DNA from: Paramacrobiotus metropolitanus | Taxonomy: Eukaryota; Tardigrada; Eutardigrada; Parachela; Macrobiotidae | DNA: 64,000 nt | NCBI RefSeq assembly: GCF_019649055.1 | Contig: NW_026570265.1 | Coordinates: 620,001-684,000 of the forward strand | Direction of reading: 5' to 3' | Shown: positions 39 to 53,918 of the stretch, piece after piece | Position numbering within the stretch: position 1 is the first letter of the stretch | Layout: every line of letters starts with the position of its first letter | Notes under the pieces: generated by a model | Seen by the model: the letters and a program-made list of their open reading frames with translations, nothing else | Told to the model about the DNA's origin: nothing | Database searches by the model: none | Translations under genes and position numbers: made by a program

Positions 39-1717
<1,679 letters not shown>

Positions 1718-2450: not shown

Positions 2451-9030
<6,580 letters not shown>

Positions 9031-22700: not shown

Positions 22701-25700
22701 AAAAAGAACAAGTTACTCGTATATTGCAAGCTTTGAAAACTGCTTGCGCTATTATACAAATTATAAAAGCGAAAGAATCTACTTACGTGTGGTCGGTTTA
22801 TCTGATTGTGAGCATAAGCTTTTCATAGGCTTTTATCATTACAGAGCCAATCCTCTATCAGTTATATGCAACAATAATTTGAATTAATTAATTAAAAAGG
22901 GTACATCAAATATCTAGTAAGCTGTGCGTTAAACTTACCATAATAATTATCTTATTTAAACTTAACACAAATCGGTGCACTGACGTTCACAAGAGTACGA
23001 CAACTTACCAGACTGGATCCGGTGCGAAATGCTATGACGTACCGACACAAAATCAACGATTGCTATTTTTATGGAATGTATGCATTCTGCTCAAACTTTT
23101 AACAATAAAAAACTAGAAATAAAATCAAGTATCGATTAATAGAAGTATGGTTAAAATTTGAGCAGGCGACTTTCAGGCTTTGCTCTTTGCGCTGTGCGTG
23201 TAACATATATTTCGAATTTCCGACACAAAATAGCACCGTTGAAAACGGTTTTGTAACTAGAATCCGTCGAAGAGCAACGGCACCAAGTTATGGTTAATCC
23301 ATTAACATTAGTTCGGTTATATCCGTAGATGGGGCGGCAGATGGTCAGCCAGCCAGCCATACATGCAGCACTATTAATATTTTCGGCGTATACTGAATTG
23401 TGTGGTCCAGTAGTATGTAAGTCAATATGAAATCCCTAGTTTAGACGTGCGGAACAGATACTCTGCTGCGAGAATATCAGACGATTGCGACGATGTTCCG
23501 CACGATGGCTATCTACTGCACAGGGGCAAATGGGACTAATTGCTGACCGGTCATTTGAGTGCACGCGTCTGCCAGGAATTAATAAACTGTCTGCCAGACA
23601 TTTAGAGGAAAACGCTTTAATCCTAGCCGCAGTCGGTTTGTTTATAATTACCACACCTCGCGGTCAGCGTTTACCTGTCGTGCTGGACGATAAAATTTAT
23701 GCACTGCATCTCTCACATGAAACACACACATATAAATAATTGTGACATAATACAAAGCATGCAGTTCTATTCCATAATTACGTTGAACCGTACAGCGGTA
23801 CAATCATTTTAGTTGTACTCGTACACAAAAAATCATCTGGTATGTTGTGTAGCATCTCTATAGTTATATTAAAAGAATAAACCTTCCCCATAAAAGCCAG
23901 TGATCGACATATCTACCAAACAAACCGACTTACCTGTGCCGAATTTCGAAAAACTGTAAATGAGATAAAGACATTCTTTTTTCTTTCCACAATCAAAAAT
24001 ATCAACAGAAGATATTGTAGTGGAGGTATAAAAAAATGTTTAGATAGCTGTTAACTCAAAATTAATTAATTTAAGCTACCGACGTGCAACTGTGGACCAG
24101 GTCTGTGGTTACTTAACGGGCAAGATCGTGCTGTTACACTCGTAATTATTTACTACAGATAGGCACTTACGAAGTTACAATTGCTTTTAAAATTATAAGC
24201 GCATTTACAACTAAGTTTCGTAGGTATATCTCGTATAGCACAGAGCTTTATGTCACTGATCAGATGGGATTTTTCAATGTTCTCAATCCATGTTCTCAGT
24301 TCTTACATATTGTTAGCAATATACTTTGTACCCTCGTATAAGGTTGCAAACCATATAATAAAACTGCAAAAGCAATGTCCCGTACGCTTGATAAAACAAC
24401 ATGTAAAGCCGACTTGGTTCCAATTTTCAAAGAGCACTTGAAATAATTTTAGAATGCTTTCAGATAATTACCTGAATATCATGGAAAAGTCTGATTCGAT
24501 CAGTAATACTGGCGCACGAGTGCTGGAGTCTGTATATAAACAGTGTGCTCCTGATACAACGTATCCGGCGGCATAGCCACAGTTGTGCCAGCGTAACCAT
24601 TAAGTAATGACTATGCTCCATATATGTCCCGGCAGCAATGGGGTTTCTCTTGTGAAATTGATAAATATTCATTGTATGCCAAACGGAATAAGTAACCGTT
24701 TTGTTTACCGAATGGCCGAGACCTACAGCATCTGGCGGTTATTAGCAACTCTGTACACAAACCGATTTCAATCCAGCCAGTTTGGAGTATTCATCAATTA
24801 TCATCTTCTTCACGTCGATATAATTTTATCTATACTTTTACAGAATATGCGGTCGCTACCGTTTTGCGCATATACAAGTACATATGCGATATGCCCACAG
24901 TTCCACACAGGACCACACTCATCCCGTCCATGTCCAGTTATTTGCAGCAAGCCATATGCTGCCATAAAGCTTCTTAATTACCAGAATAGATTTGGCTGCA
25001 TGTTTTATAAAGTAAGCACCCTATAATTACGAATTATGAGAGAATGTTTGCACGCAATAATTCGTTACTCTACTCCTTAAGGAAGCGAGTGACTCGTGCT
25101 AGCAAATACTTATGTTAACGTAAATTTTACCACGCATGTATATTTCCTGTTTGTTACCATCCCACTTATTTTTTACCTTTCACACATTTAATTTTTAGAT
25201 GCGTATTAACTCACGTACACTTATTGCGAAAATCTCAGCAAAGAAAACAATGATCTCCTCCATAATGTTTATTAAATTATTTTTATAATTGAAAATATAA
25301 GAGAACGGAGCATCCGTAAATTTTTTATAAAACGTGTTCGGTTAAAGAGAAATATTATAACAGATGCCAGTATATTATCAAGAGCAGCACCGTACCGGCG
25401 AAGCCTGGTTTGCATTCTAAACTTCCAAATCATAAATCTTCGCTTTCTCAACCGTTGTTAAGGCTGCTAGCTCTGAGAGAAACCTTAACAATACCAGTTT
25501 AACAGGCTTAACAGCCTAGAAAGGCAGTTAAGTGATTATACAATTATACTGTACAGTAATTTTTAATGAAATCGACTACCATGAATTGTTAACACAAATG
25601 TATGCCAGATTGCATTATATATTTACAACATTTCTTTATAATGGGGCGCAAATTTATTCGTAAAAGAGTAGTGCATTAAAGCAATTTCCAGAATGGATAA

Positions 25701-30492: not shown

Positions 30493-31813
30493 TTAGAAAA
30501 TGGGATTTTCCGGCACATCCGGTGCCACCGGTTTTTCCTCGACTTTTTCAGGCCTGTCCGGGTATAACTCATTGTGAAACAGCTGCAAACTCTGCTTTTC
30601 CTTTGGACCCAGCCAAACCTGTGAGCGCTTTCCATGGACAAATTCAACAGCGGAAATAGCGTCCAACCCTTGTGATTTTATCACATAGGCAGCAGCAAAA
30701 TAAGCACTACGGAATCGACCTACAAAGAAATTATTAAAACTGATTACCAGGCCAACTGCGATTATGGCCAACATATCATGATTCATAACACTACTAATAC
30801 ATGTGTTTTTCTTCATAATTTACCACAAAATAATTATTACAACGTTACACACAAAAATAAAGGAAAAAAGAAAGTCACAACTGTAAGTCAGCGCAGTCCG
30901 TTTTCACCGCAGCAGAACATATTGTTATGTTATTTGTTGACAAACAATATTAAATCTAAGCTTTATTAAGCATTTATTTTACTGTCAGCTGTCAAGTAAA
31001 GGTAACGCCTTAATATTACGTAGAGTCTATAACTATTGCGACCTTCAGAAAATTGTAAATGAAAAAGACAAACTGTTACTGTGTAACATTTAATTTTTCA
31101 ATCCCATAGACAAAATATAAACAATCAAAACTATTAAAAGTTGCATTTAACAATACCATAAGGTACCCATTTCGCTAATCTATGTGGCAGAAAATGGACA
31201 AAAGAATTTCCATACATACTAGAAAAAATATCGAGTTACGTTACTGTAGTTTTAAAATTGTTAAAAGCGAAGTAAAACATTATATGATCCAACTCAAAGT
31301 ATGCTCTAGCACACCTGCTTTGCAGTGGACGTAAACAGTCCCGTTTTCCGCGGCAATCTTGTCGATAAACTCGAGTGCTTTCTGGACTTGTTGGCGATTG
31401 GGGACTCCAACGTAATCTAACACAGGTAGTTGCAGAAACTCCACACCGACGTCTGCGTATTCCTGCAGCGTGGGATACCACAGCTGGTTCAGTTCATAAT
31501 CCTCGTTGAAAGAAATCACCCCCTTGAGATTCTCCTTCTTTTTTAATTCAGCTAATACTGATCGAAATGGTAAAGCACCCAAAATTACGTGTTCGTCCAA
31601 CCGATCGTACCATCGTCGTGAGGTAACCTTCTCCGCAGCCAAATTATACGCCAGAGAAGGAAAGAAGAAAACCTTGCGCCACATCGACATCGGCAAATTT
31701 TGCTCTCTTCCAGAAGAGCTGAATGCGATTAAGACAGAGATCGAGATCACAGCTATCGAGAAACAGGAGCAAAAGTAAAACAAATTTCTACGATTGTACA
31801 AAATTAGAGTCAT
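30493..31813 (-). CDS. PTPMT1: PTPMT1-like mitochondrial phosphatase, copy A
   Basis: Family role: dephosphorylates phosphatidylglycerophosphate in cardiolipin synthesis at the inner mitochondrial membrane. Two exons, 31813-31315 and 30719-30493, give 241 residues. The signature HCKAGRFRSAYFAAAY contains the CX5R catalytic loop (Cys and Arg present); the intron splits the Gly codon inside this loop. The general-acid Asp region LPVLDYVGVP and N-terminal WYDRLDEHVILGALPFRS are typical. The first ATG gives a hydrophobic leader (FCSCFSIAVISISVLIAF), fitting a membrane or targeting segment. An internal start at 31690 (MSMWRKVFFFPSLAYN) resembles the human N-terminus and is the alternative. It is paralogous to the gene at 35565-36119. 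Confidence 0.88.
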
Positions 31814-31906
31814 TAATGATTAATATAAACAAGATGCGGCACAAAGCGAAAAACGAAAGTCAATAAAAACATTGTATATCTTGTACAATATATCCACAGC
31901 TTTTAT

Positions 31907-35011: not shown

Positions 35012-35564
35012 TTGCGAATCTGCTCCGTTGAAGTTGCCCAAAGTTTTTGCGTTTGTGAGCAAAGCGATACGCGATAACGCTGCGTATTGCTTACAAATTT
35101 TTAAGCGTCCAAAGACCAAAGTGAAGAATTTTTAAAAGTTTCGTTCGTTTTCACGTACTACCGATTTATGATTTTATCGTAGCACTACTGTACTGCCATG
35201 AACGTGCTACTGGCGGGTGCCTCGTTCGCTTCATAGTATTCGGTACGGACGCTCACGTTTGGCAGTGACGTATATAACGTAAATCGCGAATCGCGATGAC
35301 GAATTACTGCAAAAACACTTTAAAAATTCACAAATAATCGTTTCAAGTTTTATTTTTAAATATTTAACTAGCTGTCTTTGCAGTGCATATCTTATTATTG
35401 TTTCATAGTTTGGATTTAACATGCTTATTGTCGTAACGTTGTTACAGCATGAGTACTAATGCAACTGGCGACAGTTGTTGCGGTTTTATTGCGACTCACA
35501 GAATTCTCGAAAGAAGAACCTGACTCTTTTTGTATGGGGTTCGTTTCACGTACTGCTTAAAGTT
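35012..35564. promoter_or_regulatory. Shared divergent promoter interval PTRH2 / PTPMT1 copy B
   Basis: The two start codons face away from each other across 553 bp, so both promoters must lie here unless 5'UTR introns extend further. I see no clear TATA box at a fitting distance. A bidirectional promoter is inferred from layout only. Confidence 0.5.
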
Positions 35565-36119
35565 ATGTCCGCACTTCGAAAAGCTTTATTTTTCCCAACG
35601 ATTCTGTACAACATTGTCGCGGATAGCATCACATCCCGCACCTGGTACAACCGGATCGATAGACACCTGGTTCTGGGCGCAATACCCTTTCGCAGCGTCT
35701 TGGAAGACCTGGCACCTACGGAGAAGATAAAGGGAATGATCTCCATGAACGAAGACTTTGAACTCAATCCGCGCTGGTATCCGACCTCAAGCGAACTGCA
35801 GCAGTTGGGTATCGAATTTCTGCGACTGCCTGTCAGCGATTACACTGGAACACCTACTCGCGAACAAATTCTGCAGGGGCTGCATTTCATAGACCAGGTA
35901 ATCAAGCGCGATAGCGAAGCCAGCATTTACATTCACTGCAAAGCGGGACGATCGAGGAGTGCCTATTTGGCTGCAGCCTACCTGATGGCCAAGCAGCAAA
36001 AAAAAGCGGATGAAGTAATAAGTTTTCTCAAAGAAAAGCGACCACAGATTTGGATTGGATCCCAGCAGACGAAAAGTCTCGAAGAGTACTATGAAGAAGC
36101 TGTTGCGCAACCGAAGTGA
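35565..36119 (+). CDS. PTPMT1: PTPMT1-like mitochondrial phosphatase, copy B (uninterrupted)
   Basis: One open frame of 184 residues from ATG (MSALRKALFFPTILYN) to TGA. It has WYNRIDRHLVLGAIPFRS, ISMNEDFELNPRWYPTS, the acid loop LPVSDYTGTPTREQ and the canonical signature HCKAGRSRSAYLAAAY with catalytic Cys and Arg. The length fits the family. It shows about 45 percent identity by eye to copy A over the catalytic core but has no intron where copy A has one. It could be a retrocopy or simply an intron difference. The frame is open further upstream to 35475; I chose the ATG that aligns with known N-termini. Confidence 0.92.
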   Translation: MSALRKALFFPTILYNIVADSITSRTWYNRIDRHLVLGAIPFRSVLEDLAPTEKIKGMISMNEDFELNPRWYPTSSELQQLGIEFLRLPVSDYTGTPTREQILQGLHFIDQVIKRDSEASIYIHCKAGRSRSAYLAAAYLMAKQQKKADEVISFLKEKRPQIWIGSQQTKSLEEYYEEAVAQPK

Positions 36120-37006: not shown

Positions 37007-38888
37007 TTATATTATAACCGGTCTGATTTCTCTGATGACTCGCATGAAAGGACGGGAGCTGTTATGGCACAAGGTGCCAGTTCCTGTGGATAGGTCAACC
37101 TGACTTTCCACACGTTCCATCAAAAATATCGTAAATCCGATAATTACAGCGCCAACCTGCAAAAAACCCATCCATTCAAACTTCATAAAAAGCGATATCC
37201 GACAATTACAAAGATCGTATATATCGATACCATCAAACAATAGAGATGCTGCAACTGCTATGTCAGAATATCTATATACTGGTGGTAGCCGTAGATAAGC
37301 TACATTTTGCAGTGTAGTACTAACTCGGAACTTCACGCACCAGGAAGACTTACAGAAATCACAAAAGAGCGAGTCAAATCCATAAATCCTCCCGCAGATA
37401 TTGTCAGCGGCTTCGTATAGGCTCTTTGTAGGAATGCGGCTAAGGAAATAATTTCCATATTATCGACAGCATCAGAAGGATTGTGGCTGGTGGAGGAAAG
37501 TTGTTCGGCTCTCATCATGTGCCGTTTGTGCGCCAAAGTTTGGAGGAATTCCAACGTGCATCCGCTCTTCAAATAGGTATGTAAGTATACGAAATAATTT
37601 TTCTGTCGCTAGCAATTGCTTAGAATCTCGTACATGATGATGATCATCTTGGTGTTCATATACCTGTAGCACTGTACTGCTTTATGTTAGTACTTATTGT
37701 ATTAAAAAGTGTGTAGCAGCAGCTATAGGGTTCCTACGTTATATTAAATGATAAGGTTTTTGACCCAAATGATAAGGTTTTTTTTTGGTTTTGCTAAACC
37801 CAGAAACGCTGGAGAATGAATACCTCTTCGTTCAGTTGTATTGGGAATAACGGCAACAGGAACATAATATAAAGAAAGCCCAAAATCGAGAGTACGTAAA
37901 CACAACAGGCTTCCGTTGATAACGAAGGAGTGAAAAACGATGCCAAAGTGGAAAAAACAATGCAAGCGTTTGTTAGAATACCGAGCAGAATTTGAAACGA
38001 AAATAACTGTTCATGATCGCTGCATGCTTCTATAATATCTTCGTGCAGACACCGTATTTTTAGAACATCGTTCAGAAACTGGACTCGGTTTATTTGATGA
38101 CCTTTCTTGGTATTATCATGACTTAGCTTCTCACGCAACGCGATTATCTGCTTATTAAAGATCCTGCAAAACAACCATAACACTCGGGCAAACGCACTAA
38201 TCTGGATGTACACTGCAAATGATAAAACCCCTCCCAGGAATTCTGCAAAAAAATAAAATGTGTAGCGCGCCCAAACCGGCGCTTGCAGTAGTCCGAATGG
38301 GACGGTTCGATACGCATACGACGACTTTGCAATCACTATAGCGCTGATGAATACACGTAGTCCAATTAGCAAGAACGGGATCAGGTACAAAATGACAAAT
38401 AAGATTCGATTCACCTTTTCCTGCCGACGAGTAATACGCAGTTTCGCTACTAGCGCATTCATTCGTGTCAAGTATATGCTCATGTTGCGAGATTTCAAAG
38501 CGAAAACAAAAACCGCAGTACAGTTTTTGATAAATATCAGTATATAACGCACAGATACTAGTAAGGTGACAATCCGGTTATCCGATTGCATATATGACGT
38601 CCAGAATGCCTTGTCCATAAAGAAATAGATAATATCATGTAAAAGTAACAACGCTAGAAAGGTAAATATTGTAAACGTGGTAACAACCCGCCATATGGAA
38701 ATTCTATGAAAGCGCTGGCAAAAGGTCCCGTTTTCCACTGTTTCATGACGAGGGATCAAATTAAAAAAGGTCAAAATTTGAAAGGATGGGAAAACGTTCA
38801 AAATGCGAGACGTTCGAATTACCCTATGATGTGAGGCCAGAGGAATGTTTCCTGGCGTGATGGTACGCCAAGAGAATTGCATCTGCAT
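37007..38888 (-). CDS. Gustatory-receptor-like (Gr family) 7TM chemoreceptor
   Basis: A predicted ligand-gated cation channel subunit of the insect Gr/Or superfamily (family inference). Three phase-0 exons, 38888-37824, 37566-37354 and 37156-37007, give 475 residues. Several hydrophobic helices are visible, for example FTIFTFLALLLLHDIIYFF, FVILYLIPFLLIGLRVFI and CCVYVLSILGFLYIMFLL. The C-terminal region has the family hallmark PLTISAGGFMDLTRSFVIS in exon 2, followed by a last helix VGAVIIGFTIFLMER in exon 3. The usual TYxxxxxQF motif of that helix is replaced by GFTIFLMER, so this is a divergent member. The long first exon plus short phase-0 3' exons is typical of Gr genes. The start is the first ATG; a second lies two codons on. 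Confidence 0.75.
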
Positions 38889-41008
38889 TGTTGCTGCTGT
38901 TGGACTGCAAATGTGACCCTTCCCGGATTTGAATTCTGGACTTACTACAGTAGTACGTGTATGTAGATTTATTCCTACACAGCAAAACGGTTAACTAACT
39001 GAGTAAAGCTGAAAACCTTTAAGCATGCATTTTATACTTTAAAATGGTCCGCTGCGTAAAGGTGTGCAGAGGTGTGTGTATGTGCTGTAGGTTTCACTAG
39101 CTGTGTTGTAACAATAAAGTCCCGAATCAAGTAATATGACACATTCTAATAAACTATTTTACGATTATTGAATTCCTGGCTCCGAGACAAGTGCAGATGT
39201 TCATATGTGTGCCCGGAAGTATTACCGAATAGACTTCTCGAACTACGTATAATAATAACCACACTAGTGCGACATTTTACCTGAAAATACACGACAAACG
39301 TGGCGCGGAATCAAGTTCGTACACAATACACGAAAATATGATTATACAGCGCAATGCCGTATAATCGTATATATACGAGCATATACACAGGCTACATAAA
39401 AGTATTGCCGAAATGTGAATTCGAGATGTAAAAATAGCACAGAGAACGTTACCAGTTATTGAAATTTATGTTTTGTTAATGATTTAGTAGTTATTAAACT
39501 GTAACGGGATTTCGAACTATAACGACCCAAACTTGCTGTAAAATGGGAAAGTATGCGGCGACGACCAATATTAATATGCGAGAGTCGGATTGCAACAGGA
39601 GATACTCAAACACACAGAAATGTGCCGATGCAGGGATATATATCCCTGCACATCACGTCTATAGAGATATCTCTAGACGAGCCCTTCAACCCCCTGCAAA
39701 AAGCAGCAAACATCAAACACTGCGCAATTAACAACAAATTAAAAGGATCAACAGATAACATTTTCATAAGCGTTATTATAAGGAGGACATGCCGATTGCA
39801 TGCCGACGAGCGACTACAAAATAGAAAGGTTATAAACTTTCATGGAAGTGATATAAATATTTGTTTAATGAAATATCCAAATGTTAAGACGGGGTAAGCG
39901 CGTAATAGTAATTAACCTTATGAAAGCGCGTTGTTAGCGCTTACCACGCGTCTGTCTCTCACGCGCGTCAGAGGCGGAAAAACGCCTAATAACACATATA
40001 CATCGTAGAAGACAGGAAAACGGCTGAACCGCCGCGGGTGTGGCCGCTTAAACGCGCATTTTACGCAGATTTTTTACCATAGGGATATATTCGCAATCGC
40101 ACTCACATCTGCTTAATTACATTGAGGTTTTTTGTACTCATAAATCATGGGCCATGTTTTGGTTCGATGCAGCCATTACTGAGCAAAGTTTCGAGTCTAA
40201 ACCTTCCAAGATATCGAAATATATTATATATTTCATATTATCTTGTGAAGTACATGATTTAACAAAAGAAATACCTCTGTTAGCTACGATATTAATAATT
40301 ACTGGACGCAACCACGTAAGCATGCGTAAGAAGTTCTAACGTAAGTGGAAACCTGGTTTGTTACGGTAGTATGACTAATGGTAAGATCTTCGCAGACATT
40401 TTACAAATGAGTGCAAACAGGAAATGGCTGTGCCGAGAGGTGGAAATAAATAAATTATGATCGTAAATAACAAAGTCCAAATCTGCGCTTTTGCTAAAGT
40501 CTGTAAAATTGATAGACAACTGCAAAATACCGAATACGTCATTAGTTCAATACGTATTACAAAATTTTTAATACGTGTAATTAACAATACGTATGACAAT
40601 ACCGCTTAGGAATCTTTGCTCGTTTTAAAACACGAAACTTCGCTTCAGGCGTTCATTTGGGAGTTGGGGTGGCTTTAAGGTTTGCATAGGATATACATAC
40701 GATGCATATCTGCTTTAGGTCGTATGACACATTCATTTTGCAAACGACAATGGTCAAATAACGCGATAACATGTTCATGCGCTTTTAAAAAGTGCTGTAT
40801 ACTCGTATGGCAATGGCGTATTAATTAACTGCTAAACGTTTGTGCATGTGGAAATTTGTGTGCAGCCAGATTACACTTCCACTCACAGAAAGCGGACCTT
40901 GTTGGTAAACTTAACAGTTTTACACTGGTACTACGTATCGGGATACTAACTCTGGATCTGGCTTTACATGTGATTGAATTCAAATTTATATACTTTGTAT
41001 AATCATTC
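38889..41008. other. Intergenic, divergent promoters of the Gr-like and kelch genes
   Basis: AT-rich. One overlapping pair of open frames near 39543-39897 looks non-coding to me. A run of CGCG-containing short palindromes lies around 39895-40010. No TATA box can be assigned with confidence. Confidence 0.45.
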
Positions 41009-43929
41009 ATGACGAAAAAACTAACGTCTTCTGGGCTAAAGGCAGCTGCAAACAAAGACCACGCTAAGGTGATTTCCGCTACCACATTCCAGGTTTCCAG
41101 TGTCGATTCCCCACAAACTCCCTCAGCGAGATTTCGCCATGCGTCGTGCTTCATTGAACCCTACATTTTTGTTCACGGTGGACGGTATGGATTTAGAGCG
41201 TTCCGAGATTTGTGGCGGCTGAATCTGTGTAAGGCGAGGATCTTTCGTTATTATAATTATATTTGTCTGTACATAAAATATACGAGTACTATGTATATAT
41301 ATGAGTATATACATGTGCATAAGATTTTATATACTAAAAATGAAGAGGATGGGAAATGCACCTATTTTTCAAGGAAAAAGGGATGAGTACGCGTTAATGT
41401 TGTTATCAGATAACAACACATGGGAAAAAGTTGAACCTGACAGCAGTGAATTTCCCGGACTGCAGGAGGAGCACTTTTTTGTGAAATACAAAGACGATGC
41501 ATATTTAATTGTAAATGAGAACGGATATCATAATCTCTGTCAGATCGAAGTGTGGATGCTGAACCCAGGTAAATGGCAGTATGTCATATTTATATGCCTT
41601 TACATTATTAAATTATGTAGCGGGATATAGAATAAAATATATATAAATATTGTACATTTTTATAAATCTATATGCGCGTATCAGAAATAAATAAGTATAA
41701 GAACGTATCTGCATTATCTGTCAAAAATGTAAATCGATCTGTGTCAGTACTCATCCTTTCAGGGTCGGCAACCGCAGTATAAATAAGTCCGCCGTAAAGT
41801 TCTTTTTTTTATGTGTACATACATGCATGAGTCATGCATGGAAACGAAAATTAAATCGTTTGAAATAAGTGCACAATCATAACGCAAATTTTCAGTGTGT
41901 TTTGTATTGAATGCTGATTGAAGTAAAACAGAATGGTGCAAACTTCTAAGTATGTGTCTTTACTCTTTAGTATTAATGGTCACCATCACAAGACTGAATT
42001 GAATTATCAGTAAGAACAAATTATGGTTCTTGGCTTCTTGCTAGAAATGCGTTGCGCCATATATTTATTAAAATACTCTGCAAATTTAGTTAAAAGCTAA
42101 CAATTTCCGGAATCAAAGTAATCTCTGTTTTCAAAATTAGGCAGTGTCGCATGGAGAAAATTGCGCACAGATAAACACTACGACATCCCTTTGGCAAGAA
42201 GCGGAGCAACGGGAAATATTGTGGATAAAAAGTTATATGTATTTGGCGGATTTGTAATTTTACATCAGCGACCGACTAATGCACTTCTGGAATTTGACCT
42301 TGGTAGGTAAAGCTGGCACACAGCCATACACCATAAAAACTTATTGACGTTTGTAGAGGTATACCATAAAGCACAATAATACGTACTGCACTGTTCCAGT
42401 TCCAATGATAACCATCCACTGCATATGTAATTAATCGTTCCACTGCATTTGTAATAAATTTTATGCAGTTATAAACCACACTTTTTATTTGTGTGTATAT
42501 ATGTACTATTATGTAGCGTACCACTGTACCTATATACTGTATTATTGCAATAATTATTGTCTTGTAATATTTTAAACAAGCACTCGTAGATTATGAAATT
42601 TCACAAAAGGACTATTTCTTATTTTTTTCTTATTTAATTAATGTGTAATTAATGCCAAGATATTCTTCAGTTTAATTTTGTAATTTAAGGATGGTATTCT
42701 GCTATATTAAGTAATTTACACCGGCTGTATTCTTCCAGACCAGTATAACTGGAAAACGATATGCCCGCATGAATACCCAACATCCACAGCGCCGCCACCA
42801 CTTTATTCGCATTCTTCTGTCATTTTCGAGAAGGAACTGTATGTGTTTGGGGGAACAGCAGGTTACCGAACATACAGCGCGCTATGGAAATTCTGTTTGC
42901 GTAAGTACTTTAAAACGAAATTCGGGTATTAATTGGTATTGGTTCTGTTAATAATGTAGTAGTTAGAAATTTAAAAAAATGTTTTAAGGACAGTTCCACC
43001 ATGTCTATATAAAATTTCAAAAGCATTTTCTGGGTGTGAAAGCTGAAAACTTAAAGATTTTTTTTATTGCAGGGTAATGTGATTTTACTTGCATAATATT
43101 TACGCTTTTGCAGTAATTTCAATATTTTGGAGACTATGCAGACTACTCCAATTTTTCGGAAGTTGTATCACAGTGTAACAGTATAGAGATACAAGCAAAA
43201 TTAATTTTCTACGGATGATGACAGCAGATGTCTGCAGGTAATAAATTTTGGCTGGCTGTGTCGGGAACGAAGGGTCGCTCCCCTTCGGCACGTTATGGTC
43301 ATTCGGCCATCGAAGTCGGAAATTCAATGTGGGTGTATGGTGGCCAAAATGAGCACGTCATCCATAACGACCTGTGGAGGTATGACTTTCCAAGTCGAAC
43401 ATGGACGGAATTTCAAGTAACAGGTTGCCCACCACTTGCACACCACACCGCTTTGATAAGCGCGCGGGAATACACCGATGAAAGCCGTTCCACGCATCCA
43501 GATGTCTCCAGTTACCCAAACGTCAGCCCGTTTCGCTACCCGCGTATTCTGCCAGCTGCCAGTATCCCAGATATTAGACAATACGCACGAACTATTTCCC
43601 AAGAGCCGTTAATCATTAAAAGTAAAATTAGCGACAAAGCCCGTTATCAGTATGACAACGATGCCATTGAGTTAACCGATATCAAAATCTTCGATGACCG
43701 CAATCTTACAGTCAGCACCATTTCTAATCGGGCAAAACCGATCACTGCCGCGAGAAGCACCGTCAGCACACACTCGCTGGCCGAAACGGAGTCGATAGCG
43801 GATTTTAACGCAACCGAAAACGGGAGCAGCAATACGATTTGCATGTTCCTTATTGGCGGGAACACGGCAAATGCTACTGGATTACCAAAGCCTTTAACCG
43901 TTTACACTCTGCGACTTCCTTATACCTAA
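41009..43929 (+). CDS. Kelch-repeat protein
   Basis: Five phase-consistent exons, 41009-41226, 41381-41568, 42141-42302, 42739-42900 and 43238-43929, give 473 residues. At least four kelch blades are visible by their G-G and W signatures: FVHGGRYGFRAFRDLWRLNL, LYVFGGFV, LYVFGGTAGYRTYSALWKF and WVYGGQNEHVIHNDLWRYDF with SRTWTEF. A degenerate one, FLIGGNTANATG, sits near the C-terminus after a roughly 130-residue Ser/Thr-rich linker. No BTB, F-box or membrane segment is present, so this is a free beta-propeller or adaptor. The family member cannot be named from sequence alone. Introns split the blades at G codons (phase 1), as is common in propeller genes. Confidence 0.85.
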
Positions 43930-44262
43930 ATTGCAGCGAGTCTACGAAAAATAGATTAGATATTCTAATTTTGCTCAAATTTTTATGAATTCATGAGTAT
44001 GTAAAAGCGCCGCTTGATTTTGTACAGTGTCCAAAAAAGCGATTTATGGAATTATTGAGATTTAAGAAGATAAACATCGGTAATGCAATTTAAAGTAGCC
44101 AACTTGTTACAGAGCAGATTAAGCGGTGAATCTCTGCGAGTCATAAATTTCTGATAGCGAAGCTAATTATCTCAAGGAGCAGTATCTGCTGCAGTTAACC
44201 AGTATGTATTTTCTTGACCTTTTCCCTATAAGAAGAAAGCATTTGAGAACAGTTTCAAGCAT
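43930..44262. other. Convergent spacer between kelch and guanylyl cyclase genes
   Basis: 3' flanks of both genes. Nothing else seen. Confidence 0.5.
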
Positions 44263-47200
44263 TTAGCTCATCGGTCCCACCTTGATGCTAGTTGTTCCAC
44301 GAAGTTCACAATACATCCCGAATCTTGTTAAAGCATCCTTGGAAGACTGGCTCACGTGAATTTTCAACACTGTAATGACAAGCGTCGACGTGAATACAGC
44401 CTTGTACACAAGAATATCGTACCTGCAGTCGCTACGATCATCACGTTACATTATTTTTATACAGTTAATAATCAAGAATTTAAGGGCCTCCTCTATACCT
44501 TCACCGGTTGACATCATTCTCGATGCAGTGTTCATCGTATCTCCAAATCTAGGAAACAAGTCCATGGAAGAAAATTGGGTAATAAAGCTAGCAAGCACAC
44601 TTTCCCTTACATGCAGTATCGCGGCCGGCGAATTCCAACGACAGCTGTGGCAACGGGGCCTGTAATAAATTCCATACAACAAACATTTTTTGTTTTGAGT
44701 CGCTTTACGAAAGTCATAAGAGCGTACCGGTATTAAATCCAATCTTTAATTGCAGTTGATGGTGTTTACATGCAATTGATTGAAATTGTTGACCAACTAA
44801 AACAAGCGTACGCGCCAGCTGCGCAATCTGTAAAACAAATTCAAATAACAGTAATATCTTTTCCATAACATGTATGTGTTTTACTTTATGACGAGATATT
44901 ACGTGTATATTTTAATGCGTTTAATTTCAAAATATGTATAATAAATTCAGCCCCATCCGACTTGTGACCATCCAGCTTTCATGCTACTATTTCGGATAGG
45001 TTGTATTGCTTATGAAACGTGTTTTATGATACTGACCTGCCGCACATGCTCGTATCCATTTCGCAATGGAAGACCACTCGTAACCTAAAAAACATTCGTA
45101 TCATATTCCCTTCAGTCCCTCGCTCACATTTAAAGTATTTTAATTTAAAGTAAGTAGCTATTTTTTCAGGAGCGTCAGCAACTTACAATGTATGAATCAG
45201 CAACAGTTTCCACTTTGTATACATCATAATCGGAAATTTTGGCGTCAAATATCGTGTACAAGTCATTCAAGAAGCGAACAATCTGATTTGGTGTAAAAGC
45301 AGTTGATAAGGTAGGAAAGTTGTTTATTCCAGTAAAACATATTGTAACCGAATCGTAGCGCTCAGGATACACCGTATTTCCGCTCATAAGAGATTTGGCA
45401 ACCGCTCTACAAATTTGGAGAAAATGTAAAGCGTACAACATCAAGTAGGAAATTTAGATCGCGCAATTCGTTATGTCATGGTGTACAGTATGATACATGG
45501 TGTAGAACTGTTGGCTTCTTACTCTGGAAATATATCCGATAATAGTTGTTCACACTTGCGCTTCTCATCTAAGAAAGCTTCAGTTTTGGCGCCCACGGCT
45601 TCTTCCAGTTCGTTAGCATACTTTTCCATACGATCCAGAATATCGTCCATAAGTGATTTGCCGTGATGGAATTCGGGATGTTGACTCAAGAACGTCTGCA
45701 CTTGTTGTATGGTATATCGCTCGTCCGGAGATTCCGAGCAACACCCGATTATCAAGGCTTTCACATTCTCTGGACAATTTTGCCATTTATTCCAGCGAAA
45801 TAGTGGATGAAAAACGGAAATCACTGAGTTCACGATTTCTGCAAATACAAAGTGTAACAATATCAGCGTACAACAAACAAAAACACAGTAAACATTACCT
45901 GTGCAATATTCTTGAGTGGTAAAGCGACCGGAATGATACGGCAGACATTCGGTGTATAATTCCTGAACAACTATCCCGAAGCTGAATAAATCCGCCGGTT
46001 TGGATTGTGTGAATTTTATAGGTGATCGTAAAACTTCCGGCGCATTCCACAGCAGCTTTAAGACATCGCTCGCAAGTACGGTAGTTCGTTGCGATCGGCA
46101 GATGTCGATGTCCGTCAGTTGCAAAATGAAATAATTATCAATTATGCAATTCGGGGTTTTCAGATTGCCATGGCAGGCAATTGTTGATCCGTGTAGAAAA
46201 GTTAGGCTCTGCGGTCAGAAAGTCCCGTGATATGAATATACGCAAAGCAGTCATAATTAAGGATTTGGTTTACAAACCGCAGCGAGATGATTCACGAATG
46301 AGTTTTTTAGCCACGCATCGAGTTTAACGGTTTTGTTGTTAAGCAGATCCGACAGGCTTCTTCGTTTTCGGTATTCGGTTATCAGCTTGATACATAAAAA
46401 TCCAGGAAGGAGACCCAGAAATGGCACAACATTAGGATGGTTTAATTTTATATACTGCAAAAAAAGCAATTGTGTTACTAATTTTGTAATTTAGCTAACA
46501 CTGCTCCACAAATAGTTTTTTATGCGCAACAACGGTACAATTATAAAAGTATCATTTTCATGTGCAACTGTTTGCATAAATGCGTCTTGCTTTATATGGT
46601 ACATAGTAAATATTAGTACTTACTATGACCTTTTGGCCACTGACCATGCGTATGTCGTACTTTTGCTATAGCGGATGTCGCAGTTGCATCGCATCCAGCT
46701 TTATGTATTGCACAACTGACCTCTCGCAACAGATGCCGCTCCTGATTATTAGGACTAAATGGCTTGGCGGTGTCAATGGATTTGATCCACACCTTTCGCT
46801 GCTCATAGTAACCAATGTGTCCGCTCGGGAAAACGCTGTTTTGTCCCTGTATCATCTGCAAATCCGTATTAGAATTTTCAAAACCTATAATGCGCATGAG
46901 TCAAAAACCAAAACAACCTTACCGTGGCACTCGATACCAAAGCCTGCGGGCGACCTTTTTGACTAAACCAGTCCCAACCTCCAATATAAAAGGGCACGAA
47001 CAGCTTGGCATCTTCCAATTTCCAAGCTGTCTCCAGATCGTTTTGGTGGCGAAACTTTCTTCTGTAAAGAGTCACACTCTTTTTGTCTGACCAATTTTTA
47101 TACATCAGCGTAACAAAAATTTGTGCGCAAAACATTTCTGAATACTGTATGAGTCGATGCGAAACCCAGCTAAAAATGCTTGATAATCAAACCTGGTATA

Positions 47201-50200
47201 AACATGAAGAATAACGCTTCCAATAAGGAGCAATGCTGTTATCGGTATCCATACAATTGCAGAATGGTTTTCTGTTAAAAAATAATTTCATCGTATGCCA
47301 AAAAATTCTTGAAATGCAGTCATATTGGCTAACCTGGCCGCTGAGAGCAGACTGCTTTATTCCCCGTATAACCGCAAACCGGCTCATCCAGTGGCACTTT
47401 TCCACCTGACCACGTAACAGTCTTCCCCGGCACCCGTGCCCAGGTAATCGTACAAGCATCGAAAACGTACACTTCTTCGAACTGACCACTGTCTTGGTTG
47501 AACGACAGCACTGCATACTGCACTTTTTTGTCTCCATTGGGATCAATGAAAATCGGGCCAGCCACATCGTTTTCCAGAGTTTTATTCCACATAAACTGGG
47601 AAACTGCTCTACCATCCAGAATATTCCCAGTTTCATTCCATACTGCGAAATACGCCTAAAATATTCAAACATATGCTCCATTGAAACCCTGAACGATTTC
47701 ACTGATCCCATGCAATTTATGTACTGCAGTTAACGCGAAGTGGCTAGCAACTCGGTCCTTCTGCGGAAAGGGGCATACCGTCGACGCGCTACACTTTTAG
47801 ACAAAACCGTAGCATATGACACATAAAGAAATTATTTTTGTACTTTAAAATGGGTTCAGTAATGGTAACGCATTTGTTTTTGCTGAGAAATTAGCTTTTA
47901 AAGTGAAAAATTTGAAGTCGATTTTCACAGAGTAGAGATGTGAAAAAAATTATTCTGAAACGGCCATTTTATAGAGTGAAGTATTAGAAACTTATTATAC
48001 GGACAGAATTTTGATTGATAAAAAACAGAAAAAGAAAAAAAATCGGGGGTGCCAAAGAAGTGCCTGGGGCACCCTACCCCTGGATAGTTCTGACCATATC
48101 TGCCGAACAAAACCCTAAACAGAGATTCTGTCCGTATAATAAGCTCAGGCTGCGGTACTTTATTTAATGCAATTTTATTCGTAATTTTTGGCACACAAAT
48201 GTATTCACAGCTGATTTTCGAAGTTTTTTTACGTTTTGTTCACTGTTAGCTTGCAAAAGTACACTTCTTTCACGGCTTTGGTGCCGGTACCGAGAGGTGC
48301 TGGCTGCCGCACACAAAAGCACATGCACATGTTGAGCAACGCAGAACAGGCAGGCAGCCATGCAGGCTGTTGCAGTCATAGTCACTAAAACGAAAGACTG
48401 CAATCAGACGGCAGATTTGCGTTTATGGCGTCTTTTGTTCCTCTTTCTTGTCAACAAGCTCAACAAAGCTCGATGGGGCAGTTGCAGATTTTGATCGCAC
48501 CTGATTGCGATTACTTCAATGCCAACCACTGATGTCGGGGGCGATTGAAGGAATATGCCATCACTCACAATAAGTGCGGCGCAACCCATTATTTTGCGGT
48601 TCACCTTACGTGCCCCCCTCTACCACTAGTACAACTTTAATTTTTTGCGTGTTAACGAACAAAGATATACTCATTACAACTAGTATAAGGTCTCATACGC
48701 CCTTAGGGCAAGCGGGCGGCGGTTTTTAATTTTGAGTGAACAACGGCGCAGTTATTTTTTAATTTAGAAATAGTTTCCAGAAATTATAAAAATTATTTCA
48801 AAGCTTGGGGGAAACAGCACACTTTCGTGTGAAATCTCCCCAATTAATGTTGCGCTAAGTTTTTAAGCCCAAAAGGTGTCCATGCTAACGTGTCATCTGC
48901 AGATTAGAAAAAAACTGTCGAAATAGATTTTAAGGAGAATTCAACGTTTCAAATATCCAGAGCTGTTTTTGCAAGAGTTCGTTTTTCTGCCGCATTCACG
49001 AAAGCAAATAAAGACGCATGTTAAAAATGAATTCAAAATGTAATATGGGTTTTCGAGGAGCAAAGATTTGCGGTAACAATTAAAAATTTAATCGAATGTG
49101 GTGTTCGGATTTACCGCTACTGCAACATTAGGAAAAGTAATTTGATAAACTAATTAAAACTTAGTCAGTTTGGAATCATACAGGGGTGCTACTGCTACGC
49201 AAAGTTGGGCAGTTGCGTAAAATAAACTACCAAACAATTTAACACGTAGCATTGCTTTTGATTTTGCACTTTTCTAGCGTAACTGTTTATTGCAAATCTA
49301 GAAATACAGAAACCGCAATCTTTTGAAGCACCAGTAGGGAGCCGAGCACTTATTCAGGGGATGGGGTAGTGGTCATTCTGTGTATGCTTATAGCTCACTC
49401 TATAAAGTATTTCCCAACCGATATATGATTCGTAAACTTTTTTGGGAGCCGTTGAGGGTAACAAAATGTTGTTCGCTATCAGTTAGCCACAAAACCTTGA
49501 GCGATCAGGGTTTAAGCTGACGACCGAAGAAGGTATGTGGCAACAAAGATCTTATCAGGAGTGGTTGTCTGTGGCATTCCGCGACTGTCTAGAGAGTTCG
49601 AAAAGGAGGTCGCCCTCCACTTTGACAGTGCTCGCAGTCTAACTGAAAAGGTCACGCTGGCTAGACTGCAATTCAAGCATGTTAGGCATGATTCAAAGGA
49701 GGATAGAATGACAAAAAAACTTGGCTTATTACCATTAGACTACACCATCAAGTGAAAGGTTAAAAAAATTTCGCATAATAGGAAGGCTGCTCCTGTCCAC
49801 AGGTTGACCAGAATTTTTATGCATGTCAGCTCTAGTTTTCACCTCACTGGAACTCGAAACACGCCCTTAGCGTAGAATATTGTAGTGGAAAAGATGCTGG
49901 AGACATTGAACAGCTATGTAAAAATTAAATAATTATTCATTTGTTGACGGTTGGCTTGTGGCAACTTTTGGAAAAAAGTGTCCCAACTTGGCGAAGCATC
50001 CTGTATCTAAAAGTGATGCATGGAAAATTTTATTGCGAATTCTAAAAATTGGCGATGATTCAGATACAAAAATTACAAAAATAATAGAGATTCAGATTTG
50101 ATTGTACACTTATTGAATGAACAATTGACTGTGCATTAAAAACCGACTGCACGAATCAGCAAAAACAAATTTCAAAAAGTCATCAGATTAAAAACTTGAT

Positions 50201-53200
50201 TTGAAAAAGCATGGCGCGTAAATTTATTTCTTTCATAGTACCTTAGAATTTAACCGTGAGTAAAAACGATTAAAAAATAAATTTGAGAGATAATTTATTC
50301 GTTGGGAGCCATGATTTGGTTTCTGTATGAAAGTTCATAAATATTACATAATTATGGAAATTGAATTAGAAAACTTCGTTATTAATTTTGGAATTTCATA
50401 AAACTTTTGTGCTTTAAAGAGCAAAAGTTTTGGTACATTTGAATTTCGCATTTTAAAGCGGCACACAAAATGTGGGAAACCAGTTTTTCTTCATTAAATT
50501 TCAAAGGCAACTATCAGTTTCTTTGAAGATGAGGCTTTAGATGTATATTTATCTAAGGTATTCTAACGTCCGATATTCCCCCAATCAGCGACCTGAAAAT
50601 TGAGCAAATTTATTATTAATTATTCCCGTAGCTTGCTGCTTAAGATTTCCACGATTTAGTTATCCGGCTATTCGGTTATCTTATTATATAGGTTTTTTAA
50701 CTGATTTGACAATATAAATATTTCAAAACGAAAAGCTTGTAGACTTGTAGTTTTTAAACTTTTCTAGGGGAGAATTTAAGTTTGAAGTAAATAGATATGT
50801 ACGATTGGCTTTTTAATTTCTCAGAGGTACTTAAGATTCAGATAATGAACCTTAATGCTGAATATCCAAATAATTGAATTTCTTACAGGTAAATTACGAA
50901 AAAATATCTAGAGCTTTTTAAAATTATTTAGGAATGTTTAGAAATACTCAGAATTTTTTACTATTTAGAATTATTTAGAATTACTTAGAATTATTTAAAA
51001 TTATTTAGAATTATTTAGAATTATTTAGAATTATTTAGAATTATTTAGAATTATTTAGATTTATTTAGAATTATTTAGAATTATTTAGAATTATTTAGAA
51101 TTATTTAGAATTATTTAGAATTATTTAGAATTATTTAGAATTATTTAGAATTATTTAGAATTATTTAGAATTATTTAGAATTATTTAGAATTATTTAGAA
51201 TTATTTAGAATTATTTAGAATTATTTAGAATTATTTAGAATTATTTAGAATTATTTAGAATTATTTAGAATTATTTAGAATTATTTAGAATCATTTAGAA
51301 TCATTTAGAATCATTTAGAATTATTTAGAATTATTTAGAATTATCTAGAATTATTTAGAATTATTTAGAATCATTTAGAATCATTTAGAATTATTTAGAA
51401 TTATTTAGAATTATTTAGAATTATTTAGAATTATTTAGAATTATTTAGAATTATTTAGAATTATTTAGAATTATTTAGAATTATTTAGAATTATTTAGAA
51501 TTATTTAGAATTATTTAGAATTATTTTATTTAGAATTATTTAGAATTATTTAGAATTATTTAGAATTATTTAGAATTATTTAGAATTATTTAGAATTATT
51601 TAGAATTATTTAGAATTATTTAGAATTATTTAGAATTATTTAGAATTATTTAGAATTATTTAGAATTATTTAGAATTATTTAGAATTATTTAGAATTATT
51701 TAGAATTATTTAGAATTATTTAGAATTATTTAGAATTATTTCGAATGAGTACTAAAGATCGATGCAGCACATCAAACTCTACATTTGTAGTAGATATCGT
51801 GGTGGCGACCTCGGGGACCTGGGTTCGAGGTCCCCGAGTACTTTAGTTCGACTCAGCACATCAGACTGTACATTTGTAGTACATATCGTGGTGGCGACCT
51901 CGGGGACCCGGGTTCGAGGTCCCCGAGTACTTCAGTTCGACTCAGCACATCAAACTGTATAGGAATCACGATGAAAATCGGTGGCGACCCAAAGGTCACT
52001 CGGCGACCCAAAGGTCACTGTCACTTCCGTTACATAGAACCCTCAACATGTCTTGAATTAGAAACGCGGGCTCGCTTCGCTCGCCCGCTTGATTATTGCG
52101 TTATGTAGTATAAAAAAATCTCTGTAAGATGAGCTAAGGTAATTTTTGGGAATTATTTTGAAAATTCGCTAGCCACTTCGCGTTAACGAGCAATGCAGTA
52201 CATAAATTGCTGCCACTCACCTTTGCAGCTTCCGTAATTGCCGAATAGGTATCCACAATATGCAGATCTTTCTGTAGCCGAATGTAAGTTGTATATACAG
52301 CAACCAAATAAATTTTTTTGCACAGCACCTGACCGCTCTTTTCTTTTATGGCTGCTGCTTGGTTTATCGTTGGCATAGTGAAATTGGTAACCAACGGTGA
52401 ATTTACCGCCTTGGGAGTCACAACCAACAAGAACTGGAAAGCGTTCCTTACAATCTAAAAACCATACTTTATCTGCAGCCAGTAACACTCATTAAAAAAT
52501 TAAAGTGTGTTATTTTATTATGACAGAAGGCAGAAGCTAGCAAAAGTGTGTGCAGCTTGTTTGACGTTACAATGTCGCTTGGCTCAAAGTACTGCGTTGA
52601 GAGATTTCCATAATAATCGTGCTGAAACGGCCATATCGTGATGTAGACGAATTCTTCGTTGATCATACCATAGCGATACGCAGTCACCTCCACGCGTAAC
52701 ATATCAAAAACAAAAGCCACACTTTTACTCCGTAAAATAGGTGCTTTAATTCAGCAGATTTACCAACAGCTTCTGAACTTCCAGCATCGGAGCCATTAGA
52801 AAAATCACTAAAAAAACGCACCGTAAAAACCTTCCGTTCTGAACAGAAAACTCGGGCGCACGCATACGGACCTCTTGTAAAGCTTTTTGCCGACTGCAAG
52901 AAAATCTCAGGATCCTTCCAGTTATCTTCATCGCTGACCGTGTCATAGGAAAAGTAAGTGGGGGTAAAATCTTTGTTCCATATCAGCATGTTGTAGACCG
53001 TTGATCCCACGCTGCTGTAGAAAGCACTGCTGGTCTCGTGAATGACGGTGACCCGGTGCCATGAGAATTCGCTAAGCAGGGCGGAAATGCAACCGGCAAT
53101 ATCCTGTGGTTGGTAAGGAATGAAACGGGTCAAGGTGGGAAAACGGACCTTGTCTTCGAGGCGCACATCCGCGGGAAGACTAATAATATTTTAAATGTGG

Positions 53201-53918
53201 TATCAGTGAAAAATAAAAATTATTCATAATCCTTAGCATGTTCAGTTTATTAAAACTAGCACTCACCTCGTGACAAACAGTGCGTTTATTTCTGTGAGAA
53301 ACCCAACAAGTTCTAGTTAAACACGAACAACTTTATAAAACATTAAATAAAAAACAGTTATGATTATGTATATTTTTACATAAACTAATAAAAGAAATTT
53401 ACACACACTGTAATGCACAGTCATTTAGGTTTAAGTGCAACTACCGTACTTGTTACCTCTTGCGTAATCTCCGATAAAGTTCATAACAGCATCGCAAGCT
53501 ACAACGAAAGAACAAAAAGAATCGAACAGGTTTCTCTGAAAAACAAAGAAACAGTAAAATTTTCTAAAAATTTCTAACCTGCAACAAAAAATGCAGGAAC
53601 GGAATCTTGTTCGGCTTCGATATAGTCAAAATAATACTTCGCTCCAAGTTGTCCAATCACCGATAACGTCTGATCGCAGCGGTAGATCGACGGATATATT
53701 TGACGATATTGGGAGAACTTCAAACCAGTTCCCTTGTATTTCTGATTAACATATTCAAATGCTGCATCAATTACCGGTCCTAAAATTTCGTAACTGTACG
53801 TATACTGCGTGTACGGCAAGTGAATAAAAAAACGAATGTCTGTGACATTCGAGCATTGTAGCCGTATTATGCCACTAAACATCAGGAAGAGAAGGCTGAT
53901 AACAACGACAAAATTCAT
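44263..53918 (-). CDS. Receptor guanylyl cyclase with altered catalytic site (probable pseudo-cyclase)
   Basis: Nineteen phase-consistent exons give 1057 residues: 53918-53579, 53498-53457, 53291-53267, 53179-52872, 52743-52571, 52454-52221, 47655-47334, 47271-47193, 47061-46923, 46855-46721, 46454-46278, 46208-45899, 45838-45523, 45406-45187, 45084-45037, 44827-44728, 44659-44611, 44548-44499, 44369-44263. Order: signal peptide (MNFVVVISLLFLMFSG); ANF-type ligand-binding ectodomain (ACDAVMNFIGDYA); TM (WIPITALLLIGSVILHVY, exon 8); kinase-homology domain with ACHGNLKTPNCII and no DFG; helical linker SLMDDILDRMEKYANELEEA; cyclase domain. Kept: KVETVADSY (Glu and second Asp), PRYCIFGDTMNTASRMM (guanine Cys, Asn, Arg). 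Lost: SDIVGFT reads TGINNF, so the first metal Asp is Gly. The domain also stops at KVGPMS, lacking the usual GKG...W end. Exons 4-5 are the least certain. Confidence 0.93.
47712..47748 (+). repeat. Inverted-repeat arm next to the intron 6 acceptor
   Basis: GCAATTTATGTACTGCA followed by GTTAACGCGAAGTGGCTAGC. The exact reverse complement of both blocks occurs at 52168-52210, separated there by six extra bases (GAGCAA). This arm starts 56 bases from the end of the intron in transcript orientation. Confidence 0.9.
47991..48143. mobile_element. Short MITE with 19-bp perfect terminal inverted repeats
   Basis: CTTATTATACGGACAGAAT (47991-48009) is mirrored exactly at 48125-48143. The 153-bp element is too short to code. 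Its centre holds a GC-rich near-palindrome around GTGCCTGGGGCACC. The target duplication cannot be separated from the palindromic TTA ends. Confidence 0.75.
49181..50003. mobile_element. DNA transposon copy 1 (degenerate, TA-flanked)
   Basis: The element starts CAGGGGTGCT and ends AGCATCCTG with TA on both sides (49179-49180, 50004-50005). The terminal repeats are diverged but align with copy 2 at 57442-59005, which lies in inverted orientation. The 823 bp include a short open frame (49537-49755) whose reading frame and stop are shared with copy 2. No full transposase is present, so it is non-autonomous or decayed. Confidence 0.8.
49537..49755 (+). pseudogene. Conserved short reading frame inside transposon copy 1
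   Basis: The frame reads ILSGVVVCGIPRLSREFEKE, then HFDSARSLTEKVT and HVRHDSKEDRMTKKLG, to a stop. Copy 2 (minus strand) encodes the same phrases CGIPRL, LHFDSARSLTEKVT, HVRHDS and the same stop, with one internal stop of its own. Where the two differ inside HFDSARSLTEKV, the changes seen are silent. This suggests an old coding segment of a transposon protein that I cannot identify. The first codon listed is not a reliable start. Confidence 0.45.
50964..51741. repeat. Minisatellite of the 10-mer TTATTTAGAA
   Basis: About 78 head-to-tail copies, nearly perfect. Variants TCATTTAGAA cluster at 51291-51320 and 51371-51390, one TTATCTAGAA lies at 51341, and a register shift (TTATTTTATTTAGAA) occurs near 51521-51535. 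The clustered variants indicate local duplication of unit blocks. It lies within intron 6 of the cyclase gene. Confidence 0.97.
51765..51959. repeat. 89-bp tandem repeat, two full units and a partial third, each with a strong hairpin
   Basis: The phrase CAGCACATCA recurs at 51765, 51854 and 51943, a constant 89-bp period. Each full unit contains the palindrome CTCGGGGACC - (T/C)GGGTTCGA - GGTCCCCGAG, a 10-bp stem with a 9-nt loop. The loop GGTTCGA resembles a tRNA T-loop or RNA polymerase III B box, but no complete tRNA can be folded. It directly follows the minisatellite. Confidence 0.85.
52063..52092. repeat. GC-rich short hairpin
   Basis: GCGGGC-TCGCTTCGCTC-GCCCGC forms a compact hairpin in AT-rich sequence near the start of the cyclase intron (transcript sense). 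Unknown role; possibly a transposon scrap. Confidence 0.4.
52168..52210 (-). repeat. Inverted-repeat arm next to the intron 6 donor
   Basis: Partner of 47712-47748. In transcript sense it begins only ten bases after the 5' splice site of intron 6. The two arms can form about 37 base pairs with one 6-nt bulge. Confidence 0.9.

Follow-up and report, generated by a model that had tools for sequence, protein, structure and literature searches.

The minus strand of the window (the whole 64-kb stretch of DNA analysed here) carries a receptor guanylyl cyclase gene, hereafter the Gly865 cyclase, which extends from 53918 to 44172 in 21 coding exons and specifies 1041 codons plus a stop. The exon model was made by hand from three-frame translations and splice signals, with the ATG at 53918 and the stop at 44172, and comprises the following features:

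52221..53918, minus strand: exons 1-7 with their introns, containing the start codon, a signal-peptide-like N-terminus and most of the ANF_receptor ligand-binding domain (exon model, Pfam)
47656..52220, minus strand: intron 7, 4565 bases, with a 10-bp tandem array and an 89-bp tandem repeat
47193..47655, minus strand: exons 8-9 with their intron, encoding the membrane-proximal ectodomain and the transmembrane segment AIVWIPITALLLIGSVILHVY (transmembrane call from reading the sequence)
45523..47061, minus strand: exons 10-14 with their introns, encoding the kinase-homology domain and dimerisation helix (Pkinase E 2.8e-26, PDB match)
45187..45406, minus strand: exon 15, with both metal loops, FTGINNF and KVETVADSY (exon model, alignment)
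45328..45330, minus strand: GGA codon of Gly865, at the position of the first metal-binding Asp (exon model, alignment)
44499..45084, minus strand: exons 16-19 with their introns, encoding the remaining cyclase core including PRYCIFGDTMNTASR (Cys977, Asn984, Arg988; exon model, alignment)
44281..44369, minus strand: exon 20, encoding LKIHVSQSSKDALTRFGMYCELRGTTSIK, with Lys1024 as last codon (exon model, alignment)
44172..44225, minus strand: exon 21, encoding GKGQENTYWLTAADTAP and the stop, which completes a normal C-terminus and was absent from the first reading of the gene (exon model, NPR-A match)

No internal stop interrupts the 1041 codons. The intact frame described in the initial annotation therefore stands, although its counts of 19 exons and 1057 codons are replaced by 21 and 1041 in the rebuilt model. 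Splice sites were picked as GT-AG, so that the presence of these dinucleotides at 20/20 introns is by construction and, because the sites were selected by hand, independent support for the gene model comes from the open frame and from homology. The introns measure 55-266 bases with the exception of intron 7. Intron 6, at 57 bases, is a multiple of three and open in frame, and its retention would give a protein of 1060 codons as opposed to 1041 when it is spliced. In this hand-built model some junctions of the ectodomain (exons 5-7) are placed with less certainty than those of the cyclase domain. Because one and the same ANF_receptor match extends over the boundary of exons 7 and 8 (residue 346), the long intron 7 does not seem to fuse two unrelated genes. 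Within this intron, the 10-bp array TTTAGAATTA occupies 50917-51746 (83.8 copies) and is adjoined by the 89-bp unit, which is present in 2.4 copies (51747-51959).

Identification of the product as a receptor guanylyl cyclase, first proposed from the open frames, is borne out by three Pfam domains: ANF_receptor (residues 100-400, E 5.5e-15), Pkinase (residues 546-781, E 2.8e-26) and Guanylate_cyc (residues 851-1035, E 1.3e-52). In a PDB search, four distinct sequences pass E 1e-60: natriuretic peptide receptor 1 in three forms, and guanylyl cyclase C (GC-C). The former receptor (NPR-A/GC-A; PDB 9bcv, 9dzh) has the same domain order and aligns over residues 355-1035 (E 2.9e-126), with 103/196 aligned residues of the cyclase domain identical (52.6%). 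The architecture of animal receptor guanylyl cyclases is present in order, namely an ectodomain, one transmembrane segment, a kinase-homology domain, a dimerisation helix and a class III cyclase domain, of which the transmembrane segment and dimerisation helix were assigned by reading and alignment only. Such an architecture indicates that the DNA is of animal origin. Many receptor cyclases carry a chloride-site motif, GPxC, in the ectodomain (PMC5225109, available excerpt). Across the unconfirmed exon 1/2 junction (53579 / 53498) of the hand-built model the ectodomain reads VAAC in its place, and if this junction is correct the Gly865 cyclase may have lost chloride binding.

The most striking feature of the gene lies in exon 15. 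The frame of this exon (45406-45187, minus strand) reads YDSVTICFTGINNFPTLS, in which FTGINNF replaces the FSDIVGF of receptor guanylyl cyclases. In the alignment Gly865 (GGA, 45330-45328) occupies the position of the first metal Asp (D1) of NPR-A, GC-C, the soluble guanylyl cyclase (sGC) alpha1 subunit and AC9 C1. GGA differs at two positions from the Asp codons GAT and GAC, and a single sequencing error as the origin of Gly865 was rejected on this ground. The neighbours of Gly865 are also altered (S to T, V to N, G to N and T to P), which shows that the whole first metal loop has diverged, and FTGINNFPTLSTAFTPN is devoid of any acidic residue. The second metal loop, KVETVADSY, is present with its Asp909 (D2), as is PRYCIFGDTMNTASR, which spans the exon 18/19 junction. 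The initial annotation had reported both the Gly within the SDIVGFT element and the retention of these other motifs, and on each point the rebuilt exons and the alignment agree with it. The idea of a duplicate, alternatively used exon 15 that retains the Asp was rejected after a tblastn search of the window in which the cyclase domains of NPR-A and GC-C served as queries, at E up to 1. The matches were exon 15 and later exons of the Gly865 cyclase itself, together with two weak matches to GC-C, at 24171-24266 (E 0.90) and at 2289-2179 (E 0.99), that are taken as chance.

Eight active-site positions and their roles have been defined for human soluble cyclase (PMC3591389, available excerpt). They were mapped in an alignment of seven sequences, six of them taken from HMMER printouts, with the Lys position left out for sGC beta1 and AC9 C1, whose sequences lack the C-terminal part. 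The guanine-selecting Glu and Cys of animal receptor guanylyl cyclases are found as Glu905 and Cys977, and the ribose Asn, transition-state Arg and phosphate-binding Lys of a complete class III cyclase as Asn984, Arg988 and Lys1024. The position-4 Arg is replaced by Lys956. At the two metal-binding Asp of a catalytically complete homodimeric class III cyclase, the protein has Gly865 and Asp909.

The C-terminus, by contrast with the initial annotation, is not shortened after KVGPMS. The KVGPMS ending, followed by a stop, is a read-through of the splice donor ATCAAG/gtggga at 44281/44280, beyond which lie a 55-base intron and an exon (44225-44172) encoding GKGQENTYWLTAADTAP and the stop. This exon restores the usual KGKG...TYWL end, with the phosphate-binding Lys1024 as the final codon of exon 20, and once it is included the cyclase domain scores 205.5 bits against NPR-A, up from 185.7.

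Where in the cyclase domain have conserved residues changed? Conserved columns were taken as those identical in NPR-A and GC-C in a hand-gapped alignment, so that the change counts of these two proteins are zero by construction. There are 111 such columns, of which the Gly865 cyclase keeps 78 and changes 33. Within the SDIVGFT block 5/7 columns are changed, compared with 33/111 overall, and the excess is greater than chance (hypergeometric P 0.024). This is the top proportion among the 65 seven-column windows that hold at least five conserved columns, tied with the overlapping YFSDIVG; ESTPMQV (3/5 changed) ranks ahead of the second-metal-loop windows (4/7). When motifs are grouped by function, 11/18 metal-side columns are changed and 3/25 on the base side (Fisher P 0.001, for motif sets picked after the changes had been seen). 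The same count gives the reverse bias for sGC alpha1 (metal side 1/18, base side 10/25) and for AC9 C1 (5/18 and 16/22), the AC9 base side differing partly because adenylyl cyclase domains bind adenine. As judged from these sequence counts, the Gly865 cyclase is the mirror image of the known metal donors, alpha1 and AC9 C1, in its distribution of changes. Neither sGC beta1 (5/18 and 4/22) nor AC9 C2 (8/18 and 10/25) has a significant metal-side bias, and the bias alone therefore does not mark a beta-like subunit.

What might a receptor cyclase with half an active site do? The residue states, the gene structure as built by hand and the clustering of changes in the metal-side motifs incline us, with moderate confidence, to regard the Gly865 cyclase as a receptor cyclase that has specialised to provide the beta-like (C2-like) half of a heterodimer. 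The active sites of class III cyclases sit at the dimer interface, where one subunit supplies the two metal Asp and the other the guanine-, ribose- and phosphate-binding residues. The Gly865 cyclase retains the second set (Glu905, Cys977, Asn984, Arg988 and Lys1024) with the first Asp gone, as would be expected if its metal half were no longer used and its base half were. Since that Asp is lost, a Gly865 cyclase homodimer should hold no complete metal site. Pairing with a receptor cyclase bearing both Asp would create one complete site, and the mirror site would be dead or regulatory. We infer, then, an inactive homodimer, a partner and an active heterodimer. The initial annotation had offered three functions, as a dominant-negative partner, as a peptide decoy receptor or as an enzyme active only in a heterodimer. 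The last fits best, because all five residues that bind base, ribose and phosphate have been retained and the changes are focused on the metal side.

Several observations from soluble and nematode cyclases favour assignment to a heterodimer. In human sGC, the nitric-oxide receptor, beta1 also carries Gly at D1 and retains D2 (PDB 4ni2_B), and alpha1 retains both Asp but shows Thr and Lys in place of the Asn and Arg. Isolated sGC catalytic-domain homodimers are described as having no significant activity, the mixture being active (PMC3591389, available excerpt). When the intracellular domains of Caenorhabditis elegans ODR-1 and DAF-11 were each placed on the GCY-14 ectodomain, a response was restored only with both expressed; against this, the same source, as far as its excerpt extends, allows that ODR-1 and DAF-11 could also be homodimers and awaits formal proof in native cells (PMC8045692). 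The retention of Asp909 also counts against the heterodimer, as a pure base-side subunit would have no need of it, although beta1 keeps D2 too. A search of the 64-kb window with the protein itself found no second cyclase, the three other hits having E values of 2.0 to 9.2. Among relatives sought by one single-protein scan of each of two collections, with close-relative reach only, none was confirmed from 36 pattern matches in non-animal genomic contigs or from 3 in viral contigs.

The main rival to the heterodimer is dominant-negative action, in which a regulatory pseudo-cyclase would join normal receptor cyclases and lower or gate their output through its ectodomain and kinase-homology domain, adding no working site. 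A GC-A receptor with a mutated metal-site Asp is reportedly dominant negative, though such dimers should hold one complete site; the name of this mutation was not found among the literature matches listed. Both metal loops are among the most-changed stretches of the conserved core (5/7 and 4/7 columns), as such a protein would allow, and the change of the position-4 Arg to Lys may also weaken the metal-side half. We nevertheless consider a pseudo-cyclase unlikely, as 22/25 conserved columns are kept in base-side motifs that a pure inhibitor would not need, and under the published geometry pairing with a normal receptor should leave one complete site (PMC3591389, available excerpt). It is less probable still that the homodimer remains active, weakly or with Mn, through Asp909 plus a water or neighbouring group that replaces the lost Asp. 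Asp909 remains, as does the Ile whose backbone carbonyl helps to bind metal in adenylyl cyclases, but the first metal loop has no acidic residue. Isolated sGC beta catalytic-domain homodimers, which have the same Gly, are likewise described as showing no significant activity (PMC3591389, available excerpt).

An equally improbable account is that the gene stands at the start of decay, or represents one allele of a functional gene. The divergent ectodomain (ANF_receptor E 5.5e-15) would be compatible with this, but 1041 open codons in 21 exons with usable splice sites, changes that avoid the base side of the active site and a GGA codon two base changes from Asp all argue against it. A decoy receptor that, like NPR-C, binds its ligand but sends no signal is very improbable. 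The protein does have a ligand-binding ectodomain, yet its kinase-homology and cyclase domains are full length and its base-side motifs are conserved. NPR-C, the known decoy, lacks a cyclase domain, and a pure decoy would have no use for a conserved cyclase half-site.

How does the proposed beta-like subunit compare with known cyclases? NPR-A has both metal Asp, whereas the Gly865 cyclase has Gly at the first, and the receptor cyclases of mammals are described as homodimeric (PMC8045692, available excerpt). sGC beta1 (PDB 4ni2_B, 2wz1_A) shares the Gly at the first metal Asp, the retained second Asp and the kept guanine-, ribose- and transition-state residues, but is a cytosolic haem protein as opposed to a membrane receptor, and its identity to the Gly865 cyclase (67/149 aligned residues, 45.0%) is below that of NPR-A. 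Pfam finds no H-NOX match in the Gly865 cyclase and ANF_receptor and kinase domains instead, so that it works at best like sGC beta1 and is not a member of the sGC beta subunits. The Gly common to the two would most simply be convergent. In the C. elegans receptor cyclases ODR-1 and DAF-11 some of the catalytic residues are said to be missing, which a partner would supply, and the likeness to the Gly865 cyclase is taken from this published description (PMC8045692, PMC5225109, available excerpts). Obligate heterodimers have already been proposed for C. elegans receptor cyclases in these excerpts, and the Gly865 cyclase is probably a further example of a known situation, that of a receptor cyclase needing a partner. 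Because the general idea is already in such reviews, the advance is a modest one (PMC8045692, PMC5225109, available excerpts).

If correct, the heterodimer would offer a natural example of how receptor cyclases pass from homodimers to heterodimers, with one active-site half free to change and the other fixed, as in soluble cyclase, and it predicts a specific kind of partner. It would also caution against deducing an autonomous enzyme from nothing more than a cyclase domain hit. More tentatively, and with some doubt, the membrane receptor cyclases of this animal lineage may have diverged into subunits for the metal side and subunits for the base side, arriving anew at the sGC alpha/beta division by the same Asp-to-Gly change, with receptor pairing choosing the ligands that raise cGMP.

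Other features were observed elsewhere in the window, in which Rfam and tRNA scans gave 0 matches each. A kelch-repeat frame (Pfam Kelch families; 43222-43926, plus strand) converges on the cyclase gene from the opposite strand, its end at 43929 lying approximately 240 bases from the cyclase stop. A 398-codon open frame (37797-38990, minus strand), with no Pfam match at E 0.01, has many hydrophobic stretches and resembles a multi-pass chemoreceptor by eye. The frames at 536-964 (plus strand), 6679-7110 (minus strand) and 8169-8552 (minus strand) look by eye like a MYST acetyltransferase and a KDM5-type demethylase (JmjC and ARID parts). Two similar dual-specificity phosphatase frames, PTPMT1-like by reading, lie on opposite strands at 31283-31819 (minus strand) and 35460-36116 (plus strand) and form an inverted duplicate pair by eye; the latter, the only frame of the pair to be scanned, matches Pfam DSPc (E 7.8e-22).
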